A DNA stretch of 64,000 bases. Source: Elusimicrobia bacterium RIFOXYA2_FULL_47_53. Its GTDB lineage: Bacteria; Elusimicrobiota; Endomicrobiia; Endomicrobiales; XYA2-FULL-47-53. Made by a program: the position numbers and the translations under genes. The notes under the pieces are model-generated. The model saw only the letters and a list, made by a program, of their open reading frames with translations, had not been told where the DNA came from and searched no databases. The stretch lies in contig MGVE01000020.1 in the NCBI GenBank assembly GCA_001800315.1, positions 94,641-158,640 of the forward strand, in the 5' to 3' direction. Positions 30,483 through 38,913 of this stretch are shown one piece after another. Position 1 is the first letter of the stretch. Each line of letters opens with the position of its first letter.

Positions 30483-30515
30483 ACCTGAACTCACAAAATA
30501 GAAAGCAAATTTAAT

Positions 30516-30589
30516 GCGCCCATAGCTCAACTGGATAGAGCGTTTGACTACGAATCAAAAGGCTAGAGGTTCAACTCCTCTTGGGCGCG
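30516..30589 (+). tRNA. tRNA-Arg (anticodon ACG)
   Basis: The acceptor GCGCCCA pairs with TGGGCGC. The D arm is GCTC/GAGC, the anticodon arm TTTGA-CTACGAA-TCAAA and the T arm AGAGG-TTCAACT-CCTCT. The discriminator is G and no CCA is encoded. Confidence 0.95.
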
Positions 30590-30590
30590 T

Positions 30591-30880
30591 GTATTTAACA
30601 AAACCACCTCCAATTCTACTGCAAAACAAAAATTTGGGTTACGCCTTCGTCAAACTCACCTTATGTAGCTTTGCTACACTGCGGTTCGTCATCCTTGGCT
30701 CACTCCAAATCTTTGTTTTTCGTTACGAATAGAGGTGGCTTTGTTAAATACCTTTGAAAAACAAAGCATTAGAGACGGGTTAGGTGGGGAAGTACAATTT
30801 GAAAGTCAAAAACGGAGTTATGTTTTTCGCTACGAATAGAGGTGGTTTTGTTAAATACCTTTGAAATGCAAAGTCATCAA
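30591..30880. repeat. Palindromic repeat cluster after tRNA-Arg
   Basis: GTATTTAACAAAACCACCTC (30591-30610) is inverted at 30732-30751. AAACAAAAATTTGG and CCAAATCTTTGTTT give a second inner pair. A direct copy of the right arm (TACGAATAGAGGTGG and after) recurs at about 30824-30877. No gene is present. Confidence 0.75.
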
Positions 30881-31439: not shown

Positions 31440-31498
31440 CTCCTCACCGACGGGCAATTTTGTCTGGTAAACAGACAGTTTTGCCATCCGATGAGGAG
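31440..31498 (+). other. Long hairpin abutting the tmRNA 5' end
   Basis: CTCCTCA (31440-31446) pairs with TGAGGAG (31492-31498). Inner pairs TGTCTG/CAGACA and GGCAA.../TTGCC continue the stem. It overlaps the first base of tmRNA and could be a processing signal in the precursor. Confidence 0.5.
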
Positions 31499-31960
31499 GG
31501 GATGAACAGGCTTCGACGGGAGTGAGTAGGTACAGGTGGCAGGCCCGAGTTGGCCGAAGGCTCGGATTCCTGGGAACCAGTATTGAGTGCTGGAACAGAG
31601 ACGGAAAAGATGAAAGTATTTTTGAAGAAAATACAAACATGTTTTACGGCGAATTCCGCAGGCAATACTGGTTCCCAGGATGATAAATCGGCCAAACAAT
31701 AAACGCTAACGAAAACTTAGCTTTAGCTGCTTAACGCGGCTACGTTTGCTCCCTGATACCTATTAGGGGAGGCCAAACGCCAAGAGTAGGTTAGTTGCCT
31801 GCGGCGCGTTTCGTCCGCAGACAATGAAACAACAACGAAACTGGCTTCGGGATGATCCCGCCGCAGAGCAGTTCCGAAGCGAGAACTAATTGCGGACAAG
31901 CCTGTAGGGACCTGGCTAATACACTTTCGGACGCGGGTTCAATTCCCGCCATCTCCACCA
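31498..31960 (+). ncRNA. ssrA: Transfer-messenger RNA with an enlarged PK1 region
   Basis: The 5' GGGGATG pairs with CATCTCC at the 3' end, and CCA is encoded. The T arm is GCGGG-TTCAATT-CCCGC. The tag frame starts at the GCT at 31705 and reads ANENLALAA, then TAA at 31732. PK1 stem 1 is CCGAG (31545-31549) with CTCGG (31561-31565). Its loop TTGGCC (31550-31555) is complementary to GGCCAA (31690-31695), nine bases before the resume codon. A 113-base insert between these two parts is closed by a perfect 18-bp inverted repeat (31568-31585 and 31663-31680). The total, 463 bases, is longer than the common 350-400. Confidence 0.93.
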
Positions 31961-38710: not shown

Positions 38711-38913
38711 TTGAGTCAATTGGAAAAGCCTGTTTCAGGCCGTCTTTGCCTGTCAGCCAAAGCTTTTGTGGAGGGCGAGGAGTGCAACGACGCGTCAGCC
38801 CGCCAGAGGTTCAGTGGCGGGGCAATCTCGTCGTTCCCTACGGAAAAGCGAGATTGCTTCACCCTGCGGGTTCGCAATGACGGGGCCTTATTAAGGTTTT
38901 TCAACTGACTCAA
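38711..38913. repeat. MITE-like element with terminal inverted repeats
   Basis: TTGAGTCAATTGGAAAAGCC at the left pairs, with about four mismatches, with the right end GGTTTTTCAACTGACTCAA. Inside lies a GCAATCTCG...CGAGATTGC palindrome of the widespread GTCATTGCGA type. Both strands are open by chance; no gene is claimed. The rest of 38628-38951 holds no other recognised feature. Confidence 0.6.

Follow-up and report, generated by a model that had tools for sequence, protein, structure and literature searches.

Rickettsia palindromic elements (RPE) have been reported within the genes for tmRNA and RNase P RNA (Ogata et al. 2002, as cited in PMC2229807), and the tmRNA of Hydrogenobaculum carries a 78-nt hairpin insertion in its PK4 region (PMC4227106). 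Group I introns in tmRNA are all known from the T-psi-C loop, with an average length of about 290-414 bp, and the authors of the corresponding database of 97,179 sequences pointed out that introns at other tmRNA sites may have been missed (PMC11915505). Outside tmRNA, the Coxiella intervening sequence (IVS), a stem-closed insert in a loop of 23S rRNA, is excised by RNase III, which cuts in the middle of the stem (PMC4990558). As translocation proceeds, the pseudoknot PK1 of tmRNA is drawn between the two subunits of the ribosome (PMC8363625), and E. coli tmRNA still tags when this pseudoknot is cut down to a small hairpin (PMC4236655, PMC3968760), which indicates that PK1 tolerates change.

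We describe here a tmRNA gene (ssrA) of an uncultured bacterium, found in a window of 64 kb (the whole stretch of DNA analysed, 64,000 nucleotides), whose PK1 contains a long hairpin. Its features, in coordinates of the window, are as follows.

31498..31960, + strand: one-piece tmRNA (ssrA), CCA encoded (ARAGORN; Rfam RF00023)
31545..31549, + strand: 5' strand of PK1 helix P3, CCGAG (sequence; comparative parse)
31550..31557, + strand: 5' strand of PK1 helix P4, TTGGCCGA (sequence; Rfam alignment; comparative parse)
31561..31565, + strand: 3' strand of PK1 helix P3, CTCGG (sequence; comparative parse)
31566..31680, + strand: 115-nt insertion in PK1 loop 3, without counterpart in the same-family tmRNA (pairwise alignment with L018)
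31568..31585, + strand: left arm of the perfect 18-bp inverted repeat (repeat searches)
31616..31634, + strand: inner stem at the hairpin tip, GTATTTT 31616-31622 with AAAATAC 31628-31634 (fold)
31663..31680, + strand: right arm of the perfect 18-bp inverted repeat (repeat searches)
31681..31687, + strand: TGATAAA, what remains of the ordinary PK1 loop 3 (TAAAAA or TAATAAA in relatives; comparison)
31688..31695, + strand: 3' strand of PK1 helix P4, TCGGCCAA (sequence; Rfam alignment; comparative parse)
31705..31734, + strand: tag frame ANENLALAA plus stop (ARAGORN, coding part 208-237)

ARAGORN and Rfam concur on a full-length one-piece tmRNA at 31498-31960 with the tag ANENLALAA, the coordinates and the tag being those given in an earlier note on this DNA. 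The RF00023 match (154.7 bits, E 5.8e-61) covers model positions 1-374 in the standard order, which rules out a permuted two-piece tmRNA, and the gene has all that defines the standard one-piece form (tRNA-like domain, tag frame and stop), the tRNA-like domain, the tag frame and the Rfam helices being kept despite the insert. The acceptor stem contains a G3-U pair, the feature expected for alanine charging. SmpB and RNase III are both encoded in the genome, in which no second tmRNA scored above tRNA level. We infer that this tmRNA is active.

The two helices of PK1 lie upstream of the resume codon, GCT, which begins at 31705. The complementary halves TTGGCC (31550-31555) and GGCCAA (31690-31695) noticed earlier are indeed present, and in fact belong to a P4 helix of 8 bp (TTGGCCGA at 31550-31557 with TCGGCCAA at 31688-31695); the nine bases said to separate GGCCAA from the resume codon are there as well (31696-31704). 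P3 and P4 both pair in this tmRNA and in its relatives, with differing sequences, and the comparison agrees with the Rfam alignment on the position of PK1, so that another placement of the pseudoknot, which the earlier note had named as fatal to its reading, did not emerge.

The perfect 18-bp inverted repeat closes a hairpin of 113 nt with a folding energy of -54 kcal/mol (z -8.76 against dinucleotide shuffles); the stem is extended by 7 further base pairs beyond a small internal loop, and the inner stem GTATTTT/AAAATAC described earlier is found at the tip. The repeat is real: 2 matches were obtained against 0.03 expected, no other perfect inverted repeat of at least 18 bp with arms less than 150 nt apart occurs in the 64-kb window, and 20 simulated windows contained none of at least 15 bp. 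The hairpin folds identically within the fold of the whole RNA, and in the modelled structure it is self-contained in the loop, such that P3 and P4 can both form. The "insert" of about 113 bases announced in the earlier note matches this hairpin; the extra segment relative to the same-family tmRNA is slightly longer (115 nt).

Is this segment an insertion or a normal arm of the lineage? Matches to tmRNA (E <= 1e-22) were found in 78 of the 96 genomes of the class. The loop running from the 3' strand of P3 to that of P4 is 122 nt long here; the remaining parsable tmRNAs of the class have loops of 5-9 nt, mostly TAAAAA-like, which refines the claim that the halves of PK1 are normally a few bases apart (these lengths come from an anchored parse and move by 1-2 bases with the assumed helix lengths; one row parsed at 2 nt is taken as a misparse, L116 lies outside the parse but looks normal on inspection, and the weak match L117 was not parsable). 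Those parsed class tmRNAs that exceed 400 nt have ordinary PK1 loops and, mostly, long tags. Within the family, for which the comparison rests on two genomes (this one and L018), the tmRNAs share 278/345 identities (81%) and differ by a single large, cleanly bounded gap, which spans 115 nt (31566-31680) and falls within PK1 loop 3. The gene order tadA-ssrA-amidase is common to the window and L018, which makes the insert-free site orthologous, and the identity outside the insert argues that the tmRNA gene is not decaying. Named relatives sought by way of the adjacent amidase came from distant phyla only. At the level of the phylum, tmRNA matches occur in 275 of 341 genomes, and no further length suggestive of a PK1 arm was seen, outside the long-tag family, in a check that covered about 150 listed matches and 14 weak ones out of the 275. 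A MAFFT alignment of short stretches put the insert in the wrong place and was excluded from the analysis. We thus reject a conserved lineage arm, as the rest of the parsed class tmRNAs lack it, and the insertion reading survives the comparison that could have undone it, the arm occurring in no surveyed relative. Judging from these alignments, the 115-nt segment is an insertion, private to this genome among those surveyed.

The long tags just mentioned belong to a family of the same order (f6; e.g. L044, L043, L048, L102) and mostly have 18-35 residues, reaching 43-47 residues in these four genomes, in frames assigned by a simple script. Their first codon is often Asn, not Ala, and in the tag of L044, NNNLVSMQNFKVFVSGMFLVGLFFGMRKKSKGFENLGAMPVAA, the middle part is hydrophobic and membrane-like; the tag of the window tmRNA is ordinary, unlike these. 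Four other genomes of the order (G010, G018, G019 and G022; 96-100% complete) gave no tmRNA match at E 1e-12, and these could be cases of assembly gaps or of a form missed by the model.

Turning to the source of the insert, we found one copy of it in the 2.41-Mb genome: neither the insert nor its arms matched elsewhere beyond chance, and membership in the genome's own repeat families is accordingly rejected. A search of the 341 genomes of the phylum brought up matches that were all short, mostly to the A-rich middle and never including an arm, so that a relative elsewhere in the phylum is rejected as well. The same holds for a phage or plasmid origin: plasmids gave no match to the insert, the listed phage matches cover only the 3' end of the tmRNA (these are taken to be attachment sites), and viral contigs contain scattered 16-mer matches to the arms, one in each contig and in about the number expected by chance. 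The search for a target-site duplication yielded only GAT, offset by one base. In size and shape (113 nt, 18-bp repeats) the insert falls among palindromic elements of about 100-150 bp with terminal inverted repeats and a stem-loop, and by analogy we infer that it arrived as a MITE/RPE-like element; the several copies expected of such elements were found neither in its own genome nor in the 341 genomes. Of the three origins offered by the earlier note (an expansion arm, an intervening sequence removed by RNase III, a small palindromic mobile element), the first is excluded as a conserved feature of the lineage, as far as surveyed, and the third, taken as a known multicopy mobile family, is not supported, the proposed search of the genome having returned this single copy and the phylum no homologue.

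The genome has other palindromic elements of similar build, unrelated in sequence to the tmRNA insert. About 1.21 Mb (half of the genome) contains just three perfect inverted repeats of at least 18 bp within 260-270 nt, including that of the tmRNA insert. Palindromes of about 150 bp that end in 17-bp inverted repeats (TTGAGTCAATTGAAAAA) form a family found at L159:11719-11866, in many other stretches and at 38711-38913 of the window, with about ten full copies, plus partial ones, in the sampled half of the genome. Single-copy palindromes are also present, for instance a 102-nt element with 18-bp arms. In the window itself, repeated inverted copies of a sequence of about 47 nt (30591-30858) abut the 3' end of a tRNA-Arg gene (30515-30590); the outer arms of this element form a perfect 20-bp repeat, and a partly similar element exists in L200. 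With respect to other structured RNAs, the RNase P RNA of the same genome has a normal length (345 nt) and no insert, and the assembly yielded no 23S rRNA in which an IVS could be looked for.

The reading that we prefer, with a probability of about 0.6, is that of a private palindromic DNA insertion of 115 bp in PK1 loop 3 of a working tmRNA, with RNase III likely cutting in the 18-bp stem. A palindromic segment would have entered loop 3 in the gene of a one-piece tmRNA, and its RNA would fold back as a long hairpin with its base between the two PK1 helices; P3 and P4 could then still pair, the distance between PK1 and the resume codon would be kept, and the insertion would be tolerated because the two helices can still pair. 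RNase III would cut within the 18-bp stem, as it does with the intervening sequences of 23S rRNA, leaving a two-part tmRNA joined by the acceptor stem, helix 2, P4 and the stump of the stem. Given the passage of PK1 between the subunits of the ribosome, a retained arm of about 110 nt may well be costly, making cutting plausible; this presumed cost, together with a stem that looks like a plausible RNase III substrate, leads us to favour cutting, with retention of the arm close behind, and by analogy RNase III probably nicks or removes the arm. More tentatively, its removal would produce a two-strand tmRNA without circular permutation, a rescue RNA that would work although interrupted within PK1, shortly before the resume codon. 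That the arm instead stays uncut in the mature tmRNA, as a neutral or stabilising expansion of PK1, is a serious possibility that we rate as somewhat less likely: a self-contained hairpin leaves both PK1 helices possible, and the hairpin-like extension of 78 nt in Hydrogenobaculum is still compatible with PK4 (PMC4227106), but a perfect 18-bp stem prolonged by 7 bp is a plausible target for the RNase III that the genome encodes, and PK1 has to pass between the ribosomal subunits (PMC8363625).

For the origin of the palindrome, one could also think of template switching or inverted duplication during replication, with no transposition at all, and the single copy, the lack of homologues in 341 genomes and the want of a clear target-site duplication would agree with a local event of this kind. 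We consider it unlikely, as the 77 nt between the arms are likewise without source in the genome and several palindromic elements of like size exist in the same genome. An insert in the pseudoknot that adjoins the resume codon, in a draft assembly of 20 contigs, may finally evoke a pseudogene inactivated by the insertion, or an assembly artefact. Either would be very surprising in our opinion: the remainder of the gene is 81% identical to that of the family relative and keeps the Rfam helices, no other tmRNA above tRNA-level scores is available in the genome, SmpB is present, and the site is far from either end of its 280-kb contig.

Of the tmRNA pseudoknots, PK1 lies closest to the resume codon, and it moves between the subunits of the ribosome. 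A natural tmRNA in which it bears a long arm, or is broken, offers a ready-made test of the need for PK1 continuity, and of how much the ribosome-rescue path tolerates. It would also extend the list of core RNA genes in which a palindromic insertion has survived, as the first such case that we found in PK1.

The comparison with known systems can be summarised as follows. Like the RPEs (105-146 bp), the insert is a palindrome with terminal inverted repeats that forms a long stem-loop within a tmRNA gene; unlike them, it is single-copy, whereas RPEs are repeat families. Its host is a standard one-piece tmRNA gene, and its site there is PK1 loop 3. The Hydrogenobaculum tmRNA offers a similar case: a hairpin restricted to one lineage has been inserted where a pseudoknot forms, and the pseudoknot can still pair, but that insertion measures 78 nt and lies in the PK4 region, against 115 nt in PK1 here. 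The insert equally recalls the intervening sequences of 23S rRNA in Coxiella and Salmonella (PMC4990558), being an insert with complementary ends that closes by a stem in the loop of a structured RNA, is missing from relatives and would leave the other parts of the RNA functional; it differs from them in that the host RNA is tmRNA and not 23S rRNA, that there is no S23p reading frame and that excision by RNase III would here be an analogy. If the arm is cut, this tmRNA would consist of two strands like the permuted two-piece tmRNAs, but with standard gene order and a break that precedes the tag, within PK1. Group I introns are likewise insertions inside tmRNA genes; such an intron can be discarded here, for the insert is 115 nt long and sits in PK1, not in the T-psi-C loop, and no intron family model matched in the window. 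The kind of event is thus already known, and it is the PK1 site that is new among the cases found in the open-access literature.
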